Shown here one piece after another: positions 905-41,854 of a stretch of DNA of 64,000 nucleotides. Made by a program: the position numbers and the translations under genes. Source of the DNA: Asaia bogorensis (lineage in GTDB: Bacteria; Pseudomonadota; Alphaproteobacteria; Acetobacterales; Acetobacteraceae); contig NZ_UEGO01000034.1 in the NCBI RefSeq assembly GCF_900465345.1, forward strand, positions 1 through 64,000, given 5' to 3'. Every line of letters starts with the position of its first letter. The first letter of the stretch is position 1. The notes beneath the pieces are model-generated. The model searched no databases and was not told the origin of the DNA. It saw only the letters and a list, made by a program, of their open reading frames with translations.

Positions 905-2128
905 ATGCGCCAAACCCCCGACACCCCAGACACATCGCCTGTCCTGAACGCGCGTCCAACGGCCGACGCGGCAGGGACGACGCCAACCGGCCGGTTTGAG
1001 ATCATCCCGCCCCCTGATCGCATGACGCAGGACATGGCATCTCCCCCGGCACGACTCGTCCTGACGGGATCCTGGCTTAGTCATGATTCAGCGCTGCCGG
1101 ACTGCACGGTTGAGGCACTCGCGCCGATGGGCAAGGCCACCACACTGACCTGCGATGTCTCTGGCGTCACGGGCTGGGATACCGGGCTGATCGCATTTTT
1201 GTGGGATGTGCGCCGCCTGTGCGATGCGTCACAGCGCGTGTTCGACACTACGTCCCTGCCGCATCCGATGCAGCAATTGCTCGATTTGCTTCCTGATCAG
1301 GCTGGCCCCGCGACGCCGAGGAGAAAACCCCGCCAGCCCTTCCTCGAACATGTCGGGGGCAAAGCGATTGATGTATTCGCCGAGACAGGCATCGTTGCCG
1401 GCATGGCCTCACGCACGGCGCTGGCCGCGTTCCGCTCGCTGTTCCGGCGTGTTGGCCTACGGCGTAGTGACCTCTTTTCCGATCTGTTCAACGCAGGCCC
1501 GTCAGCACTGTTGATCGTCGGGGTCGTCAATTTTCTCGTCGGGGCCATTCTGGCCTTCGTCGGTGCCGTACAGCTGCAGAAATTTGCCGCAGGTATCTAT
1601 GTCGCCAGTCTGGTCGGCATTGCGACCGTGCGCGAAATGGCAGCGGTCATGACGGCCATCATCATGGCCGGGCGCACAGGCGGGGCCTATGCCGCACGCA
1701 TATCCACCATGCAGGGCAATGAGGAAATCGACGCGCTGAAGGTTTTCGGCATCTCGGTTTCTTCCTATCTCATCCTGCCCGCCGTGCTCTCGCTCGTCGT
1801 CACCATGCCGTTTCTCTATCTCTATGGCTGCCTGATTGGCATGCTGGGTGGTTATGTGGTGGCCATATCGATGCTCGACATCACGAGCCTTGGCTATTTT
1901 CATCAGACCGTCATTGCCTTTGGCATCGGCCAGTTCATCTTTGGTTTCATAAAGAGCATCGTTTTTGGCGCATTCATCGGGCTGACGAGCTGCCGCATCG
2001 GCCTCAAGGCAGGGCGATCGGCGGCAGATGTCGGTATTGCCGCAACGCGGGCCGTGGTGATTGGCATCGTCGGGGTCATTGCACTCGATGCCATCTTTGC
2101 TGTCATCGCCAATAGTCTGGGGGTCTGA
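905..2128 (+). CDS. mlaE: MlaE-family ABC transporter permease with fused N-terminal STAS-like domain
   Basis: The protein has 407 residues, about 150 more than a plain MlaE permease. Residues ~40-125 look like a STAS/MlaB-type domain (LVLTGSW..., TTLTCDVSGVTGWDTGL). The remainder is a classical MlaE permease with several hydrophobic segments and the conserved region around AAVMTAIIMAGRTGGAYAA. In the Mla family the permease works with an ATPase, an MCE protein and a lipoprotein to move phospholipids between the outer and inner membranes. The N-terminal domain probably replaces a separate MlaB, since no mlaB gene is present. The gene leads an operon: mlaF starts 3 bases after its stop. Whether net transport is retrograde is not readable from sequence. 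Confidence 0.88.
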   Translation: MRQTPDTPDTSPVLNARPTADAAGTTPTGRFEIIPPPDRMTQDMASPPARLVLTGSWLSHDSALPDCTVEALAPMGKATTLTCDVSGVTGWDTGLIAFLWDVRRLCDASQRVFDTTSLPHPMQQLLDLLPDQAGPATPRRKPRQPFLEHVGGKAIDVFAETGIVAGMASRTALAAFRSLFRRVGLRRSDLFSDLFNAGPSALLIVGVVNFLVGAILAFVGAVQLQKFAAGIYVASLVGIATVREMAAVMTAIIMAGRTGGAYAARISTMQGNEEIDALKVFGISVSSYLILPAVLSLVVTMPFLYLYGCLIGMLGGYVVAISMLDITSLGYFHQTVIAFGIGQFIFGFIKSIVFGAFIGLTSCRIGLKAGRSAADVGIAATRAVVIGIVGVIALDAIFAVIANSLGV

Positions 2129-2131
2129 GCC

Positions 2132-2926
2132 ATGAGCCACGAGACAGACACACAGCCCCCTGCTCCCGCCATCCTGACAATGCAGGACGTGACCCTCGCT
2201 TTCGGCCCCAAAATCATCCAGTCGCATATCGATCTATCGGTGCGGCGGGGCAGCATTTTCGCGGTGATGGGGGGCTCGGGCTGCGGCAAATCCACCCTGC
2301 TCAAAAGCATGATCGGCCTGCTGCGTCCCAGTACAGGCCGCTTCATGGTTGGCGAGCAGGACTACTGGAAAGGCACGGATGCCGATCGCACGCAGATCAA
2401 TCACCGCTTTGGCGTGCTGTTCCAGAGCGGTGCCCTGTGGAGCTCCATGACTGTGGGCGAGAATGTCGCCCTGCCCCTGCAGATGTTCACCTCTCTCGAT
2501 GCCCGGGCCATCAGACGACTGGTGGAGCTCAAACTCGCTCTGGTGGGCCTGCTCGACGCCATCGATCTCGCACCGTCGGAAATCAGCGGCGGCATGCGCA
2601 AGCGCGCCGGCCTTGCACGCGCTCTGGCCCTAGACCCCGATATCCTGTTTTTCGACGAGCCCTCTGCGGGGCTCGATCCGATCACCTCAGCGCGTCTGGA
2701 TGACCTCATCCTTAATCTGCGTGACGGTCTGGGCGCGACCATCGTCATCGTGAGCCATGAACTGCCCAGTCTGTTCAGTATCGCAGACGATGGCATCTTT
2801 CTCGATGCCATCACCAAAAGACCCATCGCGCACGGCTCGCCGCGCTTTCTGCGCGATCACTGCGACGACAGTCAGGTCCATGCTTTCATGAACCGGCAAC
2901 GCAACGAAGAAGGATCCCCCTCATGA
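2132..2926 (+). CDS. mlaF: MlaF-type ABC transporter ATP-binding protein
   Basis: This 264-residue ATPase has an intact Walker A (GGSGCGKST, residues 47-55), a signature region ISGGMRKRAGLARAL near 152-166 as in MlaF/Ttg2A proteins, Walker B ILFFDE (172-177) and an SHE-type switch histidine (VSHELP). It should energise the MlaE permease on the cytoplasmic face. It follows mlaE by 3 bases and overlaps the mlaD start through ATGA, so it is translationally coupled in the middle of the operon. The signature ISGGM instead of LSGGQ is normal for this family. Confidence 0.92.
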   Translation: MSHETDTQPPAPAILTMQDVTLAFGPKIIQSHIDLSVRRGSIFAVMGGSGCGKSTLLKSMIGLLRPSTGRFMVGEQDYWKGTDADRTQINHRFGVLFQSGALWSSMTVGENVALPLQMFTSLDARAIRRLVELKLALVGLLDAIDLAPSEISGGMRKRAGLARALALDPDILFFDEPSAGLDPITSARLDDLILNLRDGLGATIVIVSHELPSLFSIADDGIFLDAITKRPIAHGSPRFLRDHCDDSQVHAFMNRQRNEEGSPS

Positions 2927-3885
2927 ACAGGCAAGCCCTTGTCGGCGCATTCGTGCTGGGTGGTATGGCCCTCATGGTGGCGGCCTTTGTCTTTTTCGGC
3001 AATTTCCATCCGTTCACCCATACAGATCGGGCGGTTCTGATCTTTCGTGGGTCAACCAACGGTCTCTCTGTGGGTGCACCGGTCAATTTCCGTGGCGTTC
3101 AGGTCGGCGCGGTCGATCGCATTGCCATCGAATACGATCCGAAAAACCGCGAGGCCTATATCCCGGTCTATGTCACGCTGCGACGCGACGATATTCTGGT
3201 GGCCGGGCAGAAGCATGGCCATCTTCCGAGCCTGAAAAGCCTCGTCGATCATGGTCTGCGCGGTGAGATGAACCTCAAGAGCTTTGTCACGGGCACGTCG
3301 CAGATCGATCTCGACATCTCACCCAATACGCCGGCAATCCTGCATCCCGAACTCACGAACGAAACCGAGATCCCGACGCGCCAATCGTCCATTCAGGCCA
3401 TTACCAACACCATCACCCATCTGCCTTTGCGCAAGCTTAGCGATGACGCGGCTGCAACAATCGCCATCATGCACCATCTGGCAGAGATGCTCGATGAGCG
3501 CCTGCCGGCCCTTGCCGACAACCTGCAACAGACATCGCAGAGCACACGCGCGACACTCGATGCCGCCCATGACATGATCACAGCCGTCCAGCCGCAATTG
3601 CTGCGCACCCTGGCCAGCGTGGACCGGCTGGCCACGACCGGGTCCGATCAATTGACGGCGCGCGGGCAGGAATTGCGTCTGCTGCTGCAAAACAGCCGCG
3701 AAACCATGGTGACCGCCAACAAGACGCTGTCGAACCTGCAAGGCATGACCTCACCCCGCTCGATTGATCGCGCCAATCTGGATGCCAGCTTGCGCGATAT
3801 TGCCTCGGCGGCTGCAGCGTTGCGCGGCTTTGCCAATGATGTGGAGCGCAACCCGCAACTTCTGCTGACAGGACGCCGCCAATGA
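2923..3885 (+). CDS. mlaD: MlaD/MCE-family lipid-transport protein
   Basis: The 320-residue protein begins with one membrane anchor (ALVGAFVLGGMALMVAAFVF) followed by a single MCE domain (roughly residues 40-130: GLSVGAPVNFRGVQVGAV). Its C-terminal half is long and helix-rich, with leucine/glutamine-rich stretches such as LADNLQQTSQSTRATLD. In the family this is the periplasmic lipid-binding component, forming a ring on the permease. The start overlaps the mlaF stop (ATGA), and the stop overlaps the next start the same way. The extended helical C-terminus is longer than in E. coli MlaD and closer to MCE proteins whose tail forms a channel. That comparison is inference. Confidence 0.88.
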   Translation: MNRQALVGAFVLGGMALMVAAFVFFGNFHPFTHTDRAVLIFRGSTNGLSVGAPVNFRGVQVGAVDRIAIEYDPKNREAYIPVYVTLRRDDILVAGQKHGHLPSLKSLVDHGLRGEMNLKSFVTGTSQIDLDISPNTPAILHPELTNETEIPTRQSSIQAITNTITHLPLRKLSDDAAATIAIMHHLAEMLDERLPALADNLQQTSQSTRATLDAAHDMITAVQPQLLRTLASVDRLATTGSDQLTARGQELRLLLQNSRETMVTANKTLSNLQGMTSPRSIDRANLDASLRDIASAAAALRGFANDVERNPQLLLTGRRQ

Positions 3886-32762: not shown

Positions 32763-34286
32763 CTAGCGCGAGAAGGCCTTTGCAAGGATACTTTGCTTTG
32801 CCGCATCAATTGGCAAGGCCGTATCGCGCATTGCCACACCCTGCCACCCTGCACCCATCGCCGTATACAGCGCCACGGAATCGTGCAGCCTGGCCGTACG
32901 GGCCACAGCCTCACGGTCCTGAGCCCCCAGCAAGGTGCGTTGCGTCGTCAGGACATTCAGGTAATCGGTCAGACCCGCGGCATAGAGCCGCCTCGCCCTG
33001 TCCGCTGCCAGACCACTATCGGTTGCTGCCTGATGCAGCTGGGCGACATAATGGTCGTTATGCAGCCATGACGTCATGGCGTCCTCAACCTCGCGGAAGG
33101 CATTGAGCACGGTCTTGCGATAGGTCAGACGGCTGGCCTCGGCCCGTGCGCGCACCTCGACCACCTGCGAGGTGAAACGCCCCCCGTGCATGACCGGCAG
33201 GGTTGCCAGCATCATGAACGACCAGCTCATCGCATTGACCTGAAACGCCTGATACATGGCGGAGGCATTCGGATTGAATGTCAGGGGAATCGAGAATTTG
33301 GGGTAGAGCTGTGCCACGGCCACGCCGATGCGAGCCGTCGCTTCGGCATAGCCGCGCTCGGCGGCACGAATATCGGGGCGATTGGCCACGACGATCGAGG
33401 GCAATGTGGCTGGAAAGCGCGGCATGACCGGCAGGGAGGCTGTCCCGTCGGGCAATGCCTCCAGTTCTGCCTTGAGATCGCCCGGCATATCACCCAGCAA
33501 GACGCTTACCCCGTGGCTCAGCGTGTCGATCTGGGCCTTGAGAGGTTCGAGCGAAGCCAGTTCGCTATCGAGCTCGCTCTGCGCCTGTGCGGTCTGAAGC
33601 GTGTTGCCTATGCCCTCCAGATAAAGACGCTTGGTCAGATCGACCTCGCTCTGGGCATTCTTGACGTTGGCCTGCGCGATCGAGAAACGCAGCTGCGCCC
33701 CCCGGAGCGAGATATAGGCGCGTACCAGATCCGAAAGCAGCGTCATCAGCGTGGCGCGTCGGTCCTCGATGCTGACATCGATGGCGCGCTCGCTGGCCTC
33801 GACCTCGCGCCTGATACGCCCGAACGCGTCGATTTCCCAACTGGCCTGGGCACCATAGGTCAGGACCGATGCCTCTGGCCGGTTCTGCGGATTGCCGGGC
33901 CTGATGGGCCAGTTGTCGATATTGATGGAATATCGGCTTGAGCCACCGCCTGCGTTGACATCGAGCTGCGGGTACCAGGCCGAGGCCGCCTCTTCACGCA
34001 TGGCGCGACCGGCGATGATACGCTGGTCGGCAATGAGGAGGTCGTAATTACCCTTGATGGCCTGAGCCACAAGCCGGTTAAGCAGCGGATCGTTATACTG
34101 TCCCCACCACTCCTTCATCTCGGCCTCAGTGCGGGCGATTTCCTCTGCGGTGGCCGCGTGATCGGTCTCGACAAAGCCATCTGGCAGTTTCATGCGGTCG
34201 GGCTTGTAAGCGGGCCCGACCGTGCATCCGGCAAGAAGCGAGGCAGCAAAAGTGAGGGCGCAAAGCCTGCGGGGAAGAGACACCAT
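32763..34286 (-). CDS. NodT-family outer-membrane efflux lipoprotein
   Basis: The 507-residue protein has a lipobox LLAGC and the NodT/OprM family opening VGPAYKPD. Typical segments are EWWGQYNDPLLNRLVAQAI and long coiled-coil helices with the VDLTKRLYLEGIGNTLQTAQAQSELD pattern, present in two repeats. It forms the trimeric outer-membrane exit duct of tripartite efflux pumps. It is the last gene of the DUF1656-HlyD-NodT run, starting 2 bases after the HlyD stop. Confidence 0.92.
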   Translation of the reverse strand: MVSLPRRLCALTFAASLLAGCTVGPAYKPDRMKLPDGFVETDHAATAEEIARTEAEMKEWWGQYNDPLLNRLVAQAIKGNYDLLIADQRIIAGRAMREEAASAWYPQLDVNAGGGSSRYSINIDNWPIRPGNPQNRPEASVLTYGAQASWEIDAFGRIRREVEASERAIDVSIEDRRATLMTLLSDLVRAYISLRGAQLRFSIAQANVKNAQSEVDLTKRLYLEGIGNTLQTAQAQSELDSELASLEPLKAQIDTLSHGVSVLLGDMPGDLKAELEALPDGTASLPVMPRFPATLPSIVVANRPDIRAAERGYAEATARIGVAVAQLYPKFSIPLTFNPNASAMYQAFQVNAMSWSFMMLATLPVMHGGRFTSQVVEVRARAEASRLTYRKTVLNAFREVEDAMTSWLHNDHYVAQLHQAATDSGLAADRARRLYAAGLTDYLNVLTTQRTLLGAQDREAVARTARLHDSVALYTAMGAGWQGVAMRDTALPIDAAKQSILAKAFSR

Positions 34287-34288
34287 GA

Positions 34289-35200
34289 TCAGAGATGGTT
34301 CTGCAGCCAGGTGGTCAGACGGCCCCGTTGCCCTTGTGGCGGAGTGCCTACCGTGACCGTGCAGGTCATTCCGGCCGCCAGAATGACCTCGGGCGGCACG
34401 CGATCAAGATGGATACGCACGGGAATACGCTGCGCCAGACGGACCCAGGTGAAAATGGGATTCACATCCTGCAGTCCCAGCTTGTCTGGCGATCCGTTCT
34501 GATCGTTGATACCACGAGCGATGGAAACGACATGGGCCGGGATGATTTCGCGGTAGCCCATGAGCTTCACGCGGGCAACGTCACCCACATGCACGCCCCA
34601 CATCTTCGTTTCCTCGAAATAGGCGTTGATCCAGAAGCTGTCAGCATCGATGACCGCCATGCGCGACTGCCCCTCATGCGCATAGTCACCCACGCGCAGA
34701 TTGAGGTTGGTCACGTAGCCTTCAACCGGCGAGTAGACGATGGAGCGCTGGAGGTTCAGCCTCGCCACATCGAGCGTGGCACGCGCCGCATTGACCGCAT
34801 CCTCCTGCGTCTCAACATTGGAGTTGTAGATTTCCTGCTCTTCGGCCGAGACGATACCGCTCAATCCCATGCGGCGCTTGGCATCGTTGCGGCGCAGCTT
34901 GAGATCTTCCTCGGCGCTCGCAAGATGGGCCTCCGCCTCCTTGATCGCGAGGCGGAACCGCACCGGGTCGATCACGAAAAGCGGGTCGCCACGATGAACA
35001 AAATCATTGTCGTGCACCGGCACACTGACCACCGTACCCGACACTTCAGGCGCCGCATCGACCACATACACGCGAACGCGCCCATCACGCGTCCACGGTG
35101 CGATCATGTAAGTCTCCCACAGCGTGTAGCCCAGAAGGATCGTCACCCCGAGCACTGCGAATGTCAGAAAGACCCGGATCAGTGTACGAGCGAGCAACAC
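34289..35200 (-). CDS. HlyD-family periplasmic adaptor (AaeA-like)
   Basis: The start is GTG at 35198-35200, with AAGGA nine bases upstream. The 303-residue protein has one N-terminal membrane anchor and a biotinyl-lipoyl-like motif (DAAPEVSGTVVSVPVHDNDFVHRGD). A coiled-coil hairpin follows, then a beta-barrel part with SFWINAYFEETKMWGV, which resembles AaeA (p-hydroxybenzoate efflux). It should link an inner-membrane pump to the NodT duct. The expected FUSC-type AaeB pump gene is not adjacent. Confidence 0.88.
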   Translation of the reverse strand: MLLARTLIRVFLTFAVLGVTILLGYTLWETYMIAPWTRDGRVRVYVVDAAPEVSGTVVSVPVHDNDFVHRGDPLFVIDPVRFRLAIKEAEAHLASAEEDLKLRRNDAKRRMGLSGIVSAEEQEIYNSNVETQEDAVNAARATLDVARLNLQRSIVYSPVEGYVTNLNLRVGDYAHEGQSRMAVIDADSFWINAYFEETKMWGVHVGDVARVKLMGYREIIPAHVVSIARGINDQNGSPDKLGLQDVNPIFTWVRLAQRIPVRIHLDRVPPEVILAAGMTCTVTVGTPPQGQRGRLTTWLQNHL

Positions 35201-35341
35201 GGAGGCATTTCCTTGTAAGAGGCCAAGTTAGTCGGGGCGGGGAAGCAGGCAGCATGCATGGTAGAACGCCAGACACCACAGGCGACATGACCCATCATAC
35301 GCCTCTGTGAGGCGGGCAGGGAGCCGCGCTGCCTCTCGACC

Positions 35342-35536
35342 TCACACATAGAGCACCATCAGGCAGAGCACGCAGACATAGAGCGCCACTTCGAACAGGG
35401 CGACATGCCAGAACCACTCGATAGCGCCTGTGCGCCAGAGGAGGAAGCGGATAAAAAGCGTGATGGGGATGGCGGCGAGGGAATAGACGGCAATGGGAGA
35501 TATGAACACGCCGAAAAGATCAAATTCCGCGAGCAT
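35342..35536 (-). CDS. DUF1656 small membrane protein (AaeX-like)
   Basis: The ATG at 35534-35536 has a strong GGAGG upstream. The 64-residue protein begins MLAEFDLFGVFISP and has two hydrophobic segments. This matches the DUF1656/AaeX family, which accompanies AaeA/AaeB efflux genes. It is separated from the HlyD gene by 141 bases, longer than is usual in these operons, and a GGCAG/CTGCC hairpin lies in that gap. Confidence 0.85.
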   Translation of the reverse strand: MLAEFDLFGVFISPIAVYSLAAIPITLFIRFLLWRTGAIEWFWHVALFEVALYVCVLCLMVLYV

Positions 35537-35800
35537 CAGTCTCCCTCCTCCTTCTGCTATCAACCTTGCGGGATCAGAAGGGAGAGAGCCAAGCCCGAGC
35601 GCATGAAACGCGGAATATCCCGCAATGCTATCGGGGCGCAGACACCGGACGACCTGACCGAACCCGGATGAGCCCCGGACCTGACGCCTGAGGCAATTGA
35701 TGGAAGATCATAGGGGAAAGCCAGGTTCGCCGCCAGCAGGCAAACCTGAATTTTGCATTACATTCGAGGCGAATGACTTCACGTCGCAGTCAACTGGGTG

Positions 35801-36232
35801 TCAGCGCCGGGCGAAGATGTTGCGGAGCACCTCGAAGAGTTGCTTGCCCGTGAAGCGACCGACAGGGCCGAGCAGCAGACCCGTGAGCGTGGAAAGGGCC
35901 AGAGTCTGTCTAAATTCAATCATCTTGCGATCACGGCGCAGCCTTGCCTCGAACTCGACAGGATCAGCAACGTTGCGCGTACCAAGGAGGGCAAAAATAA
36001 CGACGAAAAGCAGATCCAGCCCGAATACCGAACATGCTGCGCCAAATGCCGAGAAATGGAGCACACTATAAGCGAACGCCCAGAGCACCGCATGGAAGGA
36101 CACGAGTGCGAACAGACCGAATATGGCGGCGACGATGAAATAGGCAACGCGACGACCGATGCGCATTGCTACGCGCTGCAGAACTTCGCCTTGAGCCTGA
36201 AGGGCTTCCTGCCCGACATCAATGACCTTCAT
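35801..36232 (-). CDS. Holin-X-like two/three-span membrane protein
   Basis: The frame can open at a TTG (36244) or an ATG (36232); I take the ATG, though its ribosome site is poor. The 143-residue product has an amphipathic lead, two strong hydrophobic segments (YFIVAAIFGLFALVSFHAVLW and a second around ACSVFGLDLLFVVIFALL) and a basic tail. This pattern fits the phage-holin superfamily III / YqjE-like group often found beside DUF883 proteins. The role is unknown; it is probably envelope-associated. Confidence 0.65.
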   Translation of the reverse strand: MKVIDVGQEALQAQGEVLQRVAMRIGRRVAYFIVAAIFGLFALVSFHAVLWAFAYSVLHFSAFGAACSVFGLDLLFVVIFALLGTRNVADPVEFEARLRRDRKMIEFRQTLALSTLTGLLLGPVGRFTGKQLFEVLRNIFARR

Positions 36233-36355
36233 GGAGATTCGCAAGCCTTTACGGTGTGGTCGTGCCAGCGCCAGACATTCCGGGAGCGCGCCTGCCAGAG
36301 ATCAGCGCAGGCAGGGCATCCTTGAACATCCACCCCTGAGACGGGTTGGAACATA

Positions 36356-36385
36356 AGGCTGCCCTGCAGGAAAGACGGACAGCCT
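36356..36385 (-). terminator. Terminator hairpin at the end of the DUF883 gene
   Basis: On the minus strand AGGCTGTCC pairs with GGGCAGCCT (one G.U), 9 bp with a 12-base loop. It overlaps the stop of the DUF883 gene, followed by TATG. It may separate DUF883 from the holin-like gene. Confidence 0.5.
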
Positions 36386-36662
36386 ATTTGGAGACTCGTC
36401 CTGCAATAAAGCCAATGACCGCAGAAATCAAAACAGCAGCGATCGGACGGGCACGGACACGCGCTTCGGCATTGTGCAGCTGCACATCGGTGATCTCACG
36501 GGCATTGGCCACTGCCTGATCAGCACGACCGGCAACGTCGAGCAATGCGGGGTTGATGCGATCCTTGAGCAATTGCTCCAGCTGGTCTTTCAGGCTGTCG
36601 ATCTGCTCCTGTGCCGACTTGCTGGCAACGTCGACAGATTTCTTGACGTCAGATTTGCTCAT
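36384..36662 (-). CDS. DUF883/YqjD-ElaB-like membrane-anchored protein
   Basis: I use ATG 36660-36662 (MSKSDVKK). The 92-residue protein is a long charged amphipathic helix (SAQEQIDSLKDQLEQLLKDRINPAL) followed by a C-terminal membrane segment ARPIAAVLISAVIGFIAGRVSK. This is the hallmark of the YqjD/ElaB/DUF883 family, reported to bind ribosomes or envelope partners in E. coli. It is divergent from the ATPase-like gene at 36738. Confidence 0.85.
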   Translation of the reverse strand: MSKSDVKKSVDVASKSAQEQIDSLKDQLEQLLKDRINPALLDVAGRADQAVANAREITDVQLHNAEARVRARPIAAVLISAVIGFIAGRVSK

Positions 36663-36737: not shown

Positions 36738-37847
36738 ATGTCAGGTTCATCACGAGGTCATCAGCCGCTACTGTCGATACAGTCGCTTTCGATGGCAGCT
36801 GGCGCGCCAGGATTTTCGCTCGACGTCAGGAGAGGTGAGGCCATAAGCCTGCTGGGCGACTTGCCTGAGAGGCTCAGCCTGTTCTGTGATATTCTTGGGG
36901 GCTTTGCACAGCCCGCATCAGGAAAAATCACGTTAAACAGCCGAGAAATCTCTCATGCGCCGCCCGAACAGCGCGATATCGCCCTCGTCTCGGGGCGCGA
37001 GCCCGTGTTCAGCCATCTCGATGTTGCCGGAAATATTGCCTTTCCTCTCCGCGTTCGCGGCATCCCGCTTCACGAGATCAAAGCCGTCGTCAGCAACAGG
37101 CTCGCGCTCCTCGGGCTGGACGCATTTGCCTCAACACGCGCCAATCATCTGCCGCCCGAATACGACCTGAGGCTTCGGCTCGCGCGGGCGCTTGCCTGCA
37201 GCCCAGCCATTCTGGTGATGGACGATATCCTGTCCGGCCTCGATTTTCAGGCCGCTGGTCGAACACGTCAGTTGATTACGAAACTGCACAAGGCACTCGG
37301 CCTGACACTTCTCTACACCGCCAAAAGCCGTGAGGACGCGGTATGGCTGGGCGGACGTATCGCGCTTTTCGACAGACAGACACTGGTCCAGTGCGACAAC
37401 GCCAGTGTGCTGCTGGATCGTCCGGCCAGTCCCTGGGTTGCATCGTTGTTCGCCGAGGCCAATCTGCTCACGGGGCGCACTCTGTCAGTCGAGGATGATA
37501 TTGCCACGGTGCATCTCGCCTGTGGCGGCGTAGTGGAGGCCCTGGCGGATGCCGATCTGGAGGAGGACAGCCTTTGTGTCGTGTGCATACGTCCTGATCG
37601 CATGACCCCGCTCTTCTCGTCAGTCACGGGGGATGATGACGGCCCGCAGCCTCTTGTCGCAAGCCTGCAATCAGTGTTGCACACAGGAGAGCAGATGCGT
37701 TTACGGCTACGGCTGTCAGACGGCGTGGAAATCGAGATGCGACGCCCGCTTATTCAGTCAACACGCCATCTGACGCCTGGCACGGCGATGCAACTGGCGT
37801 GGCAAGCCAGCCAGGCTGTGGCCTTTCCCATGAAAGACGATCTATAA
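36738..37847 (+). CDS. PotA-like ABC ATPase with degenerate catalytic motifs
   Basis: The 369-residue protein aligns over its length with PotA-type ATPases (VFSHLDVAGNIAFPLRVRG, LARALACSPAILVMDDILSGLD, a C-terminal TOBE part). However, Walker A is LGDLPERLS (residues 39-47) with no Gly-Lys-Ser, the Q-loop Gln is lost, and the signature is LPPEY instead of LSGGQ. Walker B has Asp-Asp (162-163), not Asp-Glu, and the switch His is Ala. It should not hydrolyse ATP. The frame is intact, so it may be a pseudo-ATPase with a new role, or a young relic. The next gene starts 18 bases downstream. Confidence 0.72.
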   Translation: MSGSSRGHQPLLSIQSLSMAAGAPGFSLDVRRGEAISLLGDLPERLSLFCDILGGFAQPASGKITLNSREISHAPPEQRDIALVSGREPVFSHLDVAGNIAFPLRVRGIPLHEIKAVVSNRLALLGLDAFASTRANHLPPEYDLRLRLARALACSPAILVMDDILSGLDFQAAGRTRQLITKLHKALGLTLLYTAKSREDAVWLGGRIALFDRQTLVQCDNASVLLDRPASPWVASLFAEANLLTGRTLSVEDDIATVHLACGGVVEALADADLEEDSLCVVCIRPDRMTPLFSSVTGDDDGPQPLVASLQSVLHTGEQMRLRLRLSDGVEIEMRRPLIQSTRHLTPGTAMQLAWQASQAVAFPMKDDL

Positions 37848-37865
37848 GGAGCATTCGAAAATTAT

Positions 37866-38960
37866 TTGCCACAGAAAGGCTGTTTCCTGAGCGCGTCGCC
37901 CACCCTTTTCCGACATGACCGCCTGACACGTGACGCTTGCAGCAAAGCGATACACGCGCTGCTTGCATTGTTCTGCCTGTCTGTGCTCTCGCCTGCATCT
38001 CGATGTCAGGCAGCGGTGCCGGGACATCATGCCCGCCATGTCACCAATCATGCGAAAAACCGGAAGGCAAACCGACCAGCGCCGGCTCAACTTGGCCTTG
38101 CCGTGCTGTCAGGCAGTCTTGATGCGCATTCGCTCCTGATGCCCGACCAGCCTTATCCGCTGCGTGAGTGGGATGGCACCCTTGCCACCCTGCGACTGGC
38201 TGCACAGGCACGCAAGCCAGCCTGGCTGGCCGCCATGATGGATAACATGACGCTCTACGCTGCTTGCCGCGACGGCGTGGTGCAGACCCTGCCGACGGCC
38301 GCTGCGGCGCCGACGCCCGCCCATACTCCTTCGGGCTCGCCCTGTGGTATAGCTGCGGGGGAAGACAGCCTCGTTCTGGCATGGGACCGCGGGAGACTGG
38401 GGGATGACGCCCCGGGCTGGAATGATTTCTGGGATATCGCCCGTCACCCCGGCAAGAGAGCCCTGCGCCTTGACCCTCGGGGAACGCTCGAAATTGCGCT
38501 CATGGCGGATGGTGTCGCACCCGGCGATATTTATACCGTACTCTCATCACCCGCAGGGGTAGATCGTGCTTTTCGCAAACTCGATCAACTCCGTCCCTAC
38601 CTGGTCTGGTGGCGCACCCCTGAGGAAGCGTCGCGAATCATGAGCAGTGGGGCTGCGCTCATGCTTTCCACACCGCATGATCGTCTGGCAGATCTGGGAG
38701 ACAAGGCGAGTTTTGCCGCGCAGTGGCGTCAGTCCCTTCGTCAGAAAATCTCCTGGGCCATACCGCGCAACGTCCCCCCCGAGCAGACAGATGCCATTCT
38801 TAAAATGCTGCGCGATCAGACTCCTCTCCATGATGACACGCAGGATGCTCCACAGGACGGACGAGATATCCGTATGCTGGCGGTGAATGACAATTTCTGG
38901 GCGATCAACTACTATGCCCTGCAGAAACGCTTTCAGGCATGGCTGACGGCAACTCCATGA
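37866..38960 (+). CDS. PotD-like periplasmic solute-binding protein
   Basis: The start is a TTG at 37866, 13 bases after AAGGAG; no better in-frame start is visible. Of 364 residues, the first ~45 form a signal peptide (HALLALFCLSVLSPASRCQA). The middle matches PotD, the polyamine-binding protein: WNDFWDIARHPGKRALRL, TLEIALMADGVAPGDIY, GVDRAFRKLDQLRPYLVWW and a SGAALMLS strand. The N-terminal lobe is less like PotD. It begins just after the degenerate ATPase and overlaps the truncated permease through ATGA, so the three are one transcription unit. Ligand is unknown. Confidence 0.78.
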   Translation: MPQKGCFLSASPTLFRHDRLTRDACSKAIHALLALFCLSVLSPASRCQAAVPGHHARHVTNHAKNRKANRPAPAQLGLAVLSGSLDAHSLLMPDQPYPLREWDGTLATLRLAAQARKPAWLAAMMDNMTLYAACRDGVVQTLPTAAAAPTPAHTPSGSPCGIAAGEDSLVLAWDRGRLGDDAPGWNDFWDIARHPGKRALRLDPRGTLEIALMADGVAPGDIYTVLSSPAGVDRAFRKLDQLRPYLVWWRTPEEASRIMSSGAALMLSTPHDRLADLGDKASFAAQWRQSLRQKISWAIPRNVPPEQTDAILKMLRDQTPLHDDTQDAPQDGRDIRMLAVNDNFWAINYYALQKRFQAWLTATP

Positions 38961-39385
38961 TAATTCCTTCCCTGGCCCTTATTGGCGGCTGGGCCTTCTG
39001 CCTTGGCCTGCTATCCGTTTTCGCTCTTTTGTCTGCAAAACTGAAAATATCTCGCAGGGCGAGAGGGTTCTTCACGCATACGGCCTGTGCGTCCCTCGTG
39101 GGGGCATTCTGGTTGAGCAGAGCCATGCCCAACTGGCCTGTTCATGGCGCAATGTTCATCGCAGGCTTTCTCTCAGCGCCTTTTTGCACGTTGCCTGTTT
39201 ACCAGAGACTCTCATGCAGAGTTGAGGGACTGACACGCGCGGCGTCCGGCCTGGGGGCTGGACCGCGCATGCGTATGCGCCTCTTGTGGTTTCCCTTGCT
39301 GAGAGGCCCGATGCTGCTTTCCGGTCTGATTTCTCTCGCTACCCTCGGATTTTGCCTCGCTCTCGGCCGGATTGCCCATGTCTGA
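38957..39385 (+). CDS. Truncated ABC permease-like membrane protein
   Basis: The ATG at 38957 overlaps the PotD-like stop (ATGA). The 142-residue protein has three to four hydrophobic segments. It contains a cytoplasmic stretch LTRAASGLGAGPRMRMRLLW that resembles the EAA loop (EAA---G---------I-LP) by which ABC permeases dock on their ATPase. Full PotB/PotC permeases are about 270-290 residues, so this is half length. Either it is a relic or a minimal membrane partner. It overlaps the next gene by 8 bases. Confidence 0.6.
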   Translation: MIIPSLALIGGWAFCLGLLSVFALLSAKLKISRRARGFFTHTACASLVGAFWLSRAMPNWPVHGAMFIAGFLSAPFCTLPVYQRLSCRVEGLTRAASGLGAGPRMRMRLLWFPLLRGPMLLSGLISLATLGFCLALGRIAHV

Positions 39386-39881
39386 TACTGAGCACCCTTT
39401 CTGGCAGATGGTCCCCCTGTCAGAAATGACGAAGGAACAATGGGAGTCGTTATGCGATGGCTGCGGCAAATGCTGCCTGCACAAGCTGCGCGACGAAGAG
39501 ACCGACGCGATCCATTTCACGAATGTCGCGTGCCGTCTGCTCAACCTGGAAACCTGCCAGTGTTCGGAGTATCCCACACGGTTTCGCAAGGTGCCGGATT
39601 GCGTGTCGCTCACGCCGGCAATTCTCGCCGATATCGACTGGCTCCCTCCAAGCTGCGCCTATATCCTGATCCGTGACGGACAGGACCTCCCCGCATGGCA
39701 CCATCTGCGCACGGGCTCGGTTGACTCTGTGCACGAGGCGGGAATCTCGGGAAAGGGCCGTATGGTTAGCGAGCGCGAAGCAGGTATGCTTGAAGACCAT
39801 ATCGTTGAGTGGCCAGCAGATATTCCACCCGGCGTGGCGAAAAAACGGCGCAAGCGACCGTCGAATAAACGACGCTGGTGA
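39378..39881 (+). CDS. YcgN-family cysteine-cluster protein
   Basis: The ATG at 39378 gives 167 residues. The conserved YcgN (UPF0260) cysteines are seen in CDGCGKCCLHKL, CRLLNLETCQCSEYPTR and KVPDC, followed by DWLPPSCAY and a C-terminal basic tail (KKRRKRPSNKRRW). The family may bind a metal or iron-sulfur cluster, but its activity is unknown. It overlaps the truncated permease upstream and the metallopeptidase downstream (GTGA), so the row is translationally coupled. Confidence 0.88.
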   Translation: MSDTEHPFWQMVPLSEMTKEQWESLCDGCGKCCLHKLRDEETDAIHFTNVACRLLNLETCQCSEYPTRFRKVPDCVSLTPAILADIDWLPPSCAYILIRDGQDLPAWHHLRTGSVDSVHEAGISGKGRMVSEREAGMLEDHIVEWPADIPPGVAKKRRKRPSNKRRW

Positions 39882-40549
39882 CAGATCCCGCCTACCCGGT
39901 AACGTGGCGACACTCTGCGCGTGCCAAGCGTATTTCGCTCCGTATCGACGGCGCTAACCGTCAGGTCGTGGTGACCTGCCCTCGTCATCTACCGCTGCAT
40001 CATGCGCGACGCTTTCTGCTCGCTCATGACAACTGGGTGCGCGAACGACTCAATGCCCTGCCAGCTGTGACTGTCCTTGTTCCGGGAAGCACCATCCTAC
40101 TCGATGATCGCCCTGTTACCTTGGTTCATGCGCCTGAGCAAAGACAAAGCGCTCTTTTGGAAGAGGGGATTTTACAGATAAACGGTCCCATTGAGCGCTA
40201 TGAGCATCGGGTTCTGGTTTTTCTCAGGCATCGGGCCGGGCTGATGCTCCCCGCCGAACTCGCTCATGAGGCAGAGCGAATGTCGTGCCAGATCGCGCGT
40301 TTCGCTTGCAGCAATGCCCGCACCCGCTGGGGGAGTTGCACACGAACCGGACGGGTCATGCTGAACTGGCGCCTGATCATGATGCCCGAATCTGTCCGCC
40401 GTTACGTGATGGTGCACGAGCTCGCCCATCTGACGCATTTCGACCATAGTCCGGCCTTCTGGGCTTTGGTGGAGCGGTTTCATGAACACCGCAAGCCAGC
40501 GCAAGCCTGGCTCAGGCAGCATGGTACAGCGTTGATGGCACTTGGATAA
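39878..40549 (+). CDS. YgjP-like zinc metallopeptidase (DUF45, chromosomal copy)
   Basis: The GTG at 39878 overlaps the YcgN stop. The 223-residue protein carries a TRWGSCT motif and the zinc site HELAHLTHFDHSPAFW (HExxH plus a downstream His and Trp). This is the YgjP/SprT-like metallopeptidase signature, also called DUF45. Substrate is unknown. It lies just outside the left edge of the genomic island, and a second member of this family is inside it at 43043. Confidence 0.87.
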   Translation: MTDPAYPVTWRHSARAKRISLRIDGANRQVVVTCPRHLPLHHARRFLLAHDNWVRERLNALPAVTVLVPGSTILLDDRPVTLVHAPEQRQSALLEEGILQINGPIERYEHRVLVFLRHRAGLMLPAELAHEAERMSCQIARFACSNARTRWGSCTRTGRVMLNWRLIMMPESVRRYVMVHELAHLTHFDHSPAFWALVERFHEHRKPAQAWLRQHGTALMALG

Positions 40550-40614: not shown

Positions 40615-40700
40615 GCGAACTTGGCGGAATGGTAGACGCACGAGACTTAAAATCTCGAGTCCGTAAGGGCGTATGGGTTCGAGTCCCATAGTTCGCACCA
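40615..40700 (+). tRNA. tRNA-Leu (anticodon TAA)
   Basis: The acceptor strands GCGAACT and AGTTCGC pair over 7 bp, with discriminator A and an encoded CCA. The anticodon stem CGAGACT/AATCTCG surrounds TAA, a long variable arm is present (class II), and the T-loop is GGTTCGAGTCCC. Total length is 86 bases. Its 3' end forms the left attachment site of the downstream island. Confidence 0.95.
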
Positions 40701-40711
40701 CTATCTCATTG
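40686..40711 (+). repeat. attL-like direct repeat (3' end of tRNA-Leu)
   Basis: These 26 bases, covering the tRNA 3' end with CCA and running on to CTATCTCATTG, recur identically at 51307-51332. The match extends left to 36 bases with two mismatches. This is the classical footprint of tyrosine-integrase insertion at a tRNA gene. Confidence 0.88.
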
Positions 40712-40786
40712 ATATTGATAGTTTTTTTGCTCTCAACGCGTCAAACCGGGATTTTCCCGGAATTCTTCCCAGAACGGGAAAGTTTG

Positions 40787-41854
40787 ATGCTGCGTCTGAT
40801 AGGGTCCCGCTACCATTTTCGCAGGGCCGTGCCGAAGGATATCCAGCCTCTCCTGAGGCGGTCCGAGATCTCCCTTTCGCTTGATACTTCGGCTAAACTC
40901 GAGGCTCGCAGACGGGCGGCACAGCTATATGACCGGACCTGACAGTTCTTCGACAAGGTGCGCGCCATGAGTGACTCGAAAGCCCGACCGCCCACACCAG
41001 ACGAGATCATCACTTTCTAAGAGAGCTTCGTTCGCGATACCGAGTCTGCCCATGCCATTGAAATGCGCCTGCTCGAGCTCAAGCATGAGAGGGAAATGAC
41101 AGAGGTTCAGGTACGCTTCCTCGAGTTCAACAACCTCGTGACGCGTTTTCTCTCCATCATCGGCCCCTATCTTGCCAAGGATACCGAGCGGCTCGAAACG
41201 ATGCGGAAAATCGTGAAGAAAGATCTGCCTGAAGCGCGTGCGGAGGCCGCTAATCTGGCCGCTCAGGTCAATCTCCTGAAAAGCATCGTCGTCGACATTG
41301 GAACCGCCACGAAGAGCGAACCTATCGCCCCAGTGCCGCTGACTGCTGAACCAGACCCGCGCGGACCAACCACACCAAAGAAAAAGCTTGCAAGCTCAGG
41401 TTCCCGCTCAAAGCTTCTGACGGTCAGCATGGCGGCGGAGCGTTTTATTTACCCAGATACCAATCGCTCAGAGGATACGAAACGCGGCACGCGCAAAGCG
41501 CTTACCCTGTTCATCGATGCCTTCGGCGACATGGAGGTCGAACGGATTACCGGCGAGACCGCTGGCGAGTTCCGTGATCTCCTCTTCCGTCTTCCCTCCA
41601 CCCACGGCAAGGAACGCAACGGTCGCTCGATCCGTGACGAGGTCGTGCGCGCTGAAACCGAAAAGCTCGAGACCATCAGCGCCAAGACGGTCAAGAACCA
41701 CTTCTCTCGTCTCTCCGCTCTTTGGGCGCTCCTGCTGCAACGTGATCTGGTGTCACGCAACGTCTGGGCAGGCTGGGACTACCATGTCACGAAGAAGGTC
41801 GAACGACGCTGCTTCAGAGATGCTGAACTGGCGCAGCTCAGTGCGACACCATGA
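40787..41854 (+). pseudogene. Decayed tyrosine integrase of the island
   Basis: The frame starts at ATG 40787 with MLRLIGSRYHFRRAVPKDI, the N-terminal DUF6538 domain seen in phage-like integrases. It is broken by an in-frame TGA at 40940-40942 and a TAA at 41018-41020. It then continues in the same frame through a core-binding SAM-like domain (GTRKALTLFIDAFGDMEVERIT). It stops at 41854, just after FRDAELAQL, so the C-terminal catalytic domain with Arg-His-Arg-Tyr is missing. The gene cannot make an active recombinase. It lies next to the tRNA-Leu attachment site, as expected. Confidence 0.85.

Follow-up and report, generated by a model that had tools for sequence, protein, structure and literature searches.

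What is an NBD for when it does not use ATP? The question is posed by a cassette of three genes in a 64,000-nucleotide stretch of Asaia bogorensis DNA (contig NZ_UEGO01000034.1), referred to below as the window. A sequence-only reading had taken the cassette for a polyamine (Pot) importer that was stripped and then kept for some other use, perhaps as a sensor or scaffold. The explanation that we favour, with our confidence poised evenly between acceptance and doubt, is that it encodes a non-transporting receptor or scaffold complex that descended once from a Pot-type importer and was retained by purifying selection.

The Cassette and Its Operon

The first gene (36738..37847, + strand) encodes a 369-aa PotA-like ABC ATPase with a TOBE domain, here called the pseudo-NBD, the second (37866..38960, +) a PotD-like periplasmic substrate-binding protein (SBP), and the third (38957..39385, +) a mini-permease with an EAA-type coupling helix. 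All three reading frames are open in the window. The pseudo-NBD scored above the Pfam gathering cut-offs with both ABC_tran (4.3e-9, 37.5 bits, cut-off 25) and TOBE_2 (4e-9, 36.9 bits, cut-off 21). The SBP, already recognised as PotD-like in the sequence-only reading, matched SBP_bac_8 above the cut-off (1.9e-16) and the PDB entry 4i1d (5.1e-26). Because these genes fall in ABC-importer families, automatic annotation is likely to call the cassette a polyamine importer.

The SBP frame is listed with an uncertain TTG start. The permease-like frame was listed as 38939-39385 (148 aa). Most mini-permease homologues begin aligning at a later ATG, at 38957; read from there, the protein has 142 aa and its start codon overlaps the stop of the SBP gene as ATGA. 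The three genes had been described as translationally linked; this holds for the SBP and the mini-permease, but the NBD and SBP frames as listed are separated by 18 nt, and the coupled operon does not end with the cassette. The stop of the mini-permease is overlapped by a gene for a YcgN family cysteine-cluster protein (39378..39881, +; NF003501, 4.8e-66), which is overlapped in turn by a gene for a YgjP-like metallopeptidase-fold protein (39878..40549, +; 1.7e-45). Upstream and divergent are a small helical protein (36384..36662, -; in Pfam, a sub-threshold DUF7602 match only), here called DUF883-like, and a Phage_holin_3_6-type membrane protein (35801..36244, -; 5.8e-7).

Loss of the ATP Site and Conservation of the Docking Groove

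The motifs of the window NBD were compared with those of L059, an intact NBD of the same family. Walker A changes from GPSGSGKTT to GDLPERLSL with loss of the Lys, the Q-loop from VFQSFALF to VSGREPVF, the signature from LSGGQQQR to LPPEYDLR and the switch from VTHD to TAKS. Walker B changes from LVLMDEP to ILVMDDI, where the Asp is kept and the catalytic Glu is now Asp; the D-loop is retained as well. The earlier description of a dead ATPase is therefore upheld motif by motif. Of the features of a type I importer, the cassette has the periplasmic SBP and, in the mini-permease, the EAA coupling helix; it lacks two full transmembrane subunits and an NBD with Walker A, Q-loop, LSGGQ, Walker B Glu and switch His.

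The same degeneration was found in every readable NBD of the 80 genomes that carry the mini-permease (79 of 80; the NBD of the remaining genome, G157, is frame-broken and its motifs stand outside the count). Together with G017 (L123) and G148 (L229) these genomes yielded 81 degenerate NBDs, read as a set of 50, in which L041 is frame-broken before the Walker A region and the other 49 include it, and a set of 31. GK[ST] in Walker A, LSGGQ and the catalytic Glu are absent from all 81, and a few of the NBDs retain a single motif letter (Gln in the Q-loop column of L099, His in the switch column of L208 and L216).

The conservation of the dead NBDs concentrates at the docking groove rather than at the ATP site. 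The Q-loop/groove stretch has the lowest mean entropy of the stretches measured (1.08 bits), and the former Q-loop now approximates S-x-R-D-P-L-F, while the Walker A loop (2.47 bits) is about as variable as the N-terminus (2.50 bits). The TOBE domain (1.64 bits) is on par with the better-conserved parts of the NBD, and R145, R150, Q218, N242, P286 and R336 are present in 50/50 dead NBDs. In MalK, according to the accessible portion of PMC7658222, the EAA coupling helix sits in the Q-loop cleft. AlphaFold models built from three-row alignments reached pLDDT values of 54 and 33, too low to be usable.

The Mini-Permease and Its Probable Contact with the NBD

The mini-permease stays below the cut-off for Pfam BPD_transp_1 (E 0.35, 11 bits, cut-off 26.4), and its family profile finds E. 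coli PotC (7.8e-10) and PotB (8.4e-6). The matched stretch of PotC is residues 68-197 of 264, and the mini-permease lacks equivalents of the first and last permease helices, in agreement with the proposal of a half-size permease with an EAA-like loop. Hydropathy averaged over the family has four peaks. With median counts of basic residues of 2 in loop 1, 1 in loop 2 and 5 in loop 3, loops 1 and 3 would be cytoplasmic. The best conserved columns (R94, L99, G100, A101, W111 and P113) lie in or beside the coupling loop, P75 being the only one located in a helix. Each of the 49 loci of a first set encodes one membrane protein, of 109-190 aa. As to descent from PotB or PotC, the evidence is divided: E. 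coli PotC is the top match in the PDB, but the score of PotB exceeds that of PotC in L228, and L223 gives a match to PotB only.

At the EAA-Glu position the mini-permease has Arg in 73/80 genomes, and residue 51 of the NBD is Asp in 69 of these 73; the others have Glu, Ala (L052) and two unreadable residues. Six genomes have Ala or Leu at the EAA position, and in these residue 51 is Glu four times, Arg once, Leu once and never Asp. All six are from one genus, on which the covariation depends, and position 51 ranks first of 369 NBD columns by a trivial margin (0.399 vs 0.395). We take this position to be that of MalK Arg47, which contacts the EAA Glu; it aligns with Arg in the MalK of T. litoralis (1g29), with Glu in 3d31 and with Leu in 2yyz.

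A double charge swap, in which both the Arg in place of the EAA Glu and the Asp in place of the NBD Arg would be new in the dead lineage, was considered and is rejected in part, since the EAA Arg predates that lineage. It is already present in both permeases of L058, in two permease ORFs of L127 and in the PotB of L223 (the PotC of L223 has Leu), all of them intact relatives, and the relatives with this Arg have Met at NBD position 51. Only the NBD side of the contact has thus changed, and the acidic residue 51 is the sole contact change particular to the dead clade. In LptB/LptFG, substitution of an NBD Arg suppresses the effect of substituting the coupling-helix Glu (PMC5082905). The Arg/Asp51 pattern supports, short of proof, a docking of the pseudo-NBD on the mini-permease.

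The Binding Protein

The core of the SBP is retained and its N-lobe is shortened. A conserved cysteine pair (Cys134/Cys160 in the window) is found in 48/49 dead-cassette SBPs, and the second cysteine is not a novelty of these proteins, both Cys being present in 8/9 comparator SBPs. In the segment that reads A-Y-N-G-R in the intact L127, the dead SBPs have Pro for Tyr in 43/49 and Glu for Arg in 31/49. A clearly changed binding pocket is a weak proposal on these data, and an altered ligand may be considered possible only, because the comparators vary too (Tyr in 3/8, Arg in 5/8) and the SBP of the window, despite the Pro, retains the original Arg.

Distribution and Synteny in the Acetobacteraceae

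The mini-permease profile was run on 397 genomes of the family, that of the window included, with a threshold of 57.7 bits. Matches at or above the threshold were found in 80 genomes of 17 genera, among them 9/9 of the genus itself; the next matches listed reach at most 51.8 bits and lie in full permease-length frames, and several small genomes are among the 317 under the threshold. In a sample of 385 genomes of the class, 5 of which are shown as the same family, nothing comparable was present among the matches listed for the 380 genomes of other families (best 55.3 bits, in a long frame). A search with the SBP in 60 relatives found close orthologues in 8/8 congeners and in three other genera, and in each of these relatives the NBD and the mini-permease adjoin the SBP.

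The DNA of all 80 loci was examined, as the first set of 49 and a further 31. The SBP lies on the contig of the mini-permease in 80/80 and the NBD in 79/80, G364 being split over two contigs. In 49/49 loci of the first set the order NBD, SBP, mini-permease, YcgN, YgjP is the same and all five genes are on a single strand; the holin-like gene is divergent upstream in 49/49 and the DUF883-like gene in 46/49. Among the further loci, 30/31 were assessable with the NBD on the same contig, and these have YcgN in 30/30 and YgjP in 29/30; YgjP was not found in L215 by the search used. Conservation in 8/8 congeners and across 17 genera is the outcome that a retained cassette had been expected to give. 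L229 (G148) has the NBD and the SBP with a weak mini-permease match (2.6e-6) under the census threshold.

In two genomes of one genus (L113, 10796-12001, -; L119, 11392-12597, -) a gene on the opposite strand stands between the SBP and the mini-permease. It is not PotB-like; by eye we take it to be a hemA-like gene, for 5-aminolevulinate synthase. The mini-permease persists there as a separate gene with this other gene in front of it.

The genome of the window has no second relative of the SBP at E 0.001, and 12/12 of its PF00528 matches lie within about 1.3 kb of an ABC_tran match, so no orphan full permease was seen. With neither a second SBP relative nor a full permease lacking an NBD, it is improbable that the cassette works for an intact Pot system in its own genome.

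Purifying Selection and Broken Frames

The dN/dS ratios were calculated pairwise (NG86) within the genus, after removal of the rows with broken frames, L041 in the NBD set and L047 in the SBP set; the trees, too, were built without L041. At the closest pairs (dS up to 1.00) they were 0.104 and 0.111 for the NBD, 0.088 for the SBP, and 0.193 and 0.202 for the mini-permease, the fastest-evolving of the three. Medians were 0.17 for the NBD (27/28 pairs), 0.11 for the SBP (25/28) and 0.29 for the mini-permease (30/36), with dS near saturation. Pseudogenes would have broken frames and a dN/dS near 1, and here the closest pairs give 0.09-0.2. Retention of the cassette by purifying selection, as the sequence-only reading anticipated, is well supported.

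Frame breaks occur in 3/80 genomes, namely in L041 (NBD), L047 (SBP) and L194 (NBD and SBP), and may be sequencing errors or real decay. L041 and L047 are congeners of the window's strain, both many-contig drafts. L194 is from a 2.0-Mb single-contig genome with one frame break in the NBD and two in the SBP, while its sister G078 is intact; either early decay or an assembly error would account for this. The young relic that had been offered as an alternative, and the outcome named beforehand as refuting (the cassette in this strain only, with frameshifts in its sisters), do not agree with a cassette in 80/397 family genomes and 17 genera, a dN/dS far below 1 and frame breaks in three genomes, two of them congeners.

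Descent from an Intact Importer

In a tree of 60 rows the 49 dead NBDs group together in a single clade (100/99), to which L053 is adjacent (98/96, midpoint root). A tree with more comparators gives the order intact, L222, L227, L053, dead; its dead side (28 rows) has 100/100 and the L227 step is weak (86/42). L222, L227 and L053 have kept Walker A and lost the Q, the signature and the switch His, and L227 also retains the catalytic Glu. L223 is an intact NBD-SBP-PotB-PotC operon with a DUF883-like gene upstream. The intact operon and the partly eroded NBDs show that the stripping took place, and the ancestry, the loss of the catalytic motifs and the single origin are well supported.

The loss of the permeases did not take a single course, since L059 (7222-9496: intact NBD and SBP with DUF883-like and holin-like genes) and L227 (-, 1508-3753: eroded NBD and SBP by a DUF883-like gene) both have no adjacent permease. 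A complete importer of the PotA-PotD-PotB-PotC type would have lost its ATPase a single time, in an ancestor shared by a large group of Acetobacteraceae. Judged by the living intermediates, the Q-loop, the signature and the switch His would have gone first and Walker A later; of the two permeases one would have disappeared, and only the four helices that surround the coupling helix would be left of the other.

What the Cassette May Do

Selection keeps the stripped pump intact, so that it probably has a different job now, such as sensing or scaffolding. Synteny, low dN/dS, the intact L223 operon and the partly eroded NBDs give good support to the proposal that a stripped Pot importer was kept for another use. 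Most likely, ATP-driven transport was lost and the docking of SBP, membrane part and NBD was kept, in a receptor or scaffold tied to YcgN and YgjP; we infer the assembly of the complex, its signalling or scaffolding and the role of these two proteins. The SBP would stand in the periplasm, the mini-permease in the membrane and the pseudo-NBD, perhaps as a homodimer by analogy with PotA and MalK, docked at the coupling helix on the cytoplasmic side. The state of the SBP might be relayed through the mini-permease to the pseudo-NBD and its TOBE domain, with an output at the membrane surface that could act on the co-translated YcgN and YgjP.

A more specific reading, which we regard as less likely than not, is that the importer turned once, step by step, into a transmembrane receptor that works without ATP and signals from the periplasm to YcgN and YgjP. 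If true, it would describe a class of bacterial sensors built from a dead ABC importer and widespread in acetic acid bacteria.

Rather doubtful is a model in which the pseudo-NBD with its TOBE domain is a cytoplasmic regulator or chaperone of YcgN and YgjP, as a unit of metal or protein maturation, and the SBP and the mini-permease are only its tether. The gene overlaps in the window, the fixed order in 49/49 loci and the conservation of TOBE about like the better NBD parts would fit it, but gene neighbourhood by itself does not demonstrate interaction, and L215 gave no YgjP match.

We consider it improbable that the cassette is an ATP-independent facilitator, with the SBP and a mini-permease dimer as a passive or gradient-driven channel and the pseudo-NBD as a structural cap. 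SBP-dependent transporters that do without ATP (TRAP) exist, going by excerpts of the literature, and the SBP core and the membrane part are both under selection; yet that part covers only the middle of PotC, is encoded by a single small gene per locus, and is best conserved in and beside the coupling loop, with P75 alone in a helix. Quite improbable, too, is a hybrid transporter in which the mini-permease or the SBP borrows an active ATPase or a full permease of another importer, as MsmX serves several Bacillus importers. Shared NBDs are known (PMC7658222, in the text open to us) and other importers are present in the genome, but apart from the split assembly G364, every one of the 80 genomes has the dead NBD next to the mini-permease, 12/12 full permeases lie near an NBD gene of their own, and half a permease would have to replace a full one. 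A functionless relic in slow decay, which the three genomes with frame breaks, the shortened SBP N-lobe and permease and the missing matches in several small-genome relatives might suggest, is very improbable against the low dN/dS of the closest pairs, a single dead clade across 17 genera and six residues present in 50/50 dead NBDs.

Relation to Known Systems

The cassette resembles PotABCD of E. coli (PDB 8Y5F-8Y5I; PMC11414716, as far as its text was available) in an NBD with a C-terminal regulatory domain, a PotD-like SBP and a permease core with a coupling helix; it differs in having no working ATP site and one half-size permease in place of PotB and PotC. With the L223 operon it shares the divergent upstream DUF883-like gene, the gene order and the Arg in the EAA loop of PotB, whereas L223 has all NBD motifs, two full-length permeases and no holin-like BLAST match. 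Heterodimeric exporters and SUR-type ABC proteins keep the NBD fold after hydrolysis is lost at their own site, but in those proteins another active site or a channel is still present, while no intact NBD is encoded in the cassette. MalK-type NBDs have regulatory functions, a regulatory domain and a groove in which coupling helices dock; the pseudo-NBD has both the domain and the groove, while MalK is an active ATPase.

No description of the cassette was found in the literature searched, which was consulted in part and mostly did not extend to subscription papers. In Acetobacter pasteurianus, putrescine ABC transporter genes, possibly other genes than those of the cassette, are counted among acid-resistance factors in the section of PMC4686929 that was accessible. 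Living relatives at the intact, half-dead and dead stages open the way from transporter to non-transporter to study by ordinary genetics in harmless laboratory strains.

Two features of the window flank the operon and its divergent neighbours. On one side (32763-35563, -) are genes for an OEP outer-membrane factor, an HlyD-type fusion protein and a DUF1656 protein, which we take to resemble an AaeAB-type efflux set. On the other (40615-40942), a tRNA-Leu(taa) lies directly after ygjP, and next comes an ORF whose DUF6538 domain is presumably integrase-associated; an integrated element adjoining the conserved operon probably has its attachment site here.
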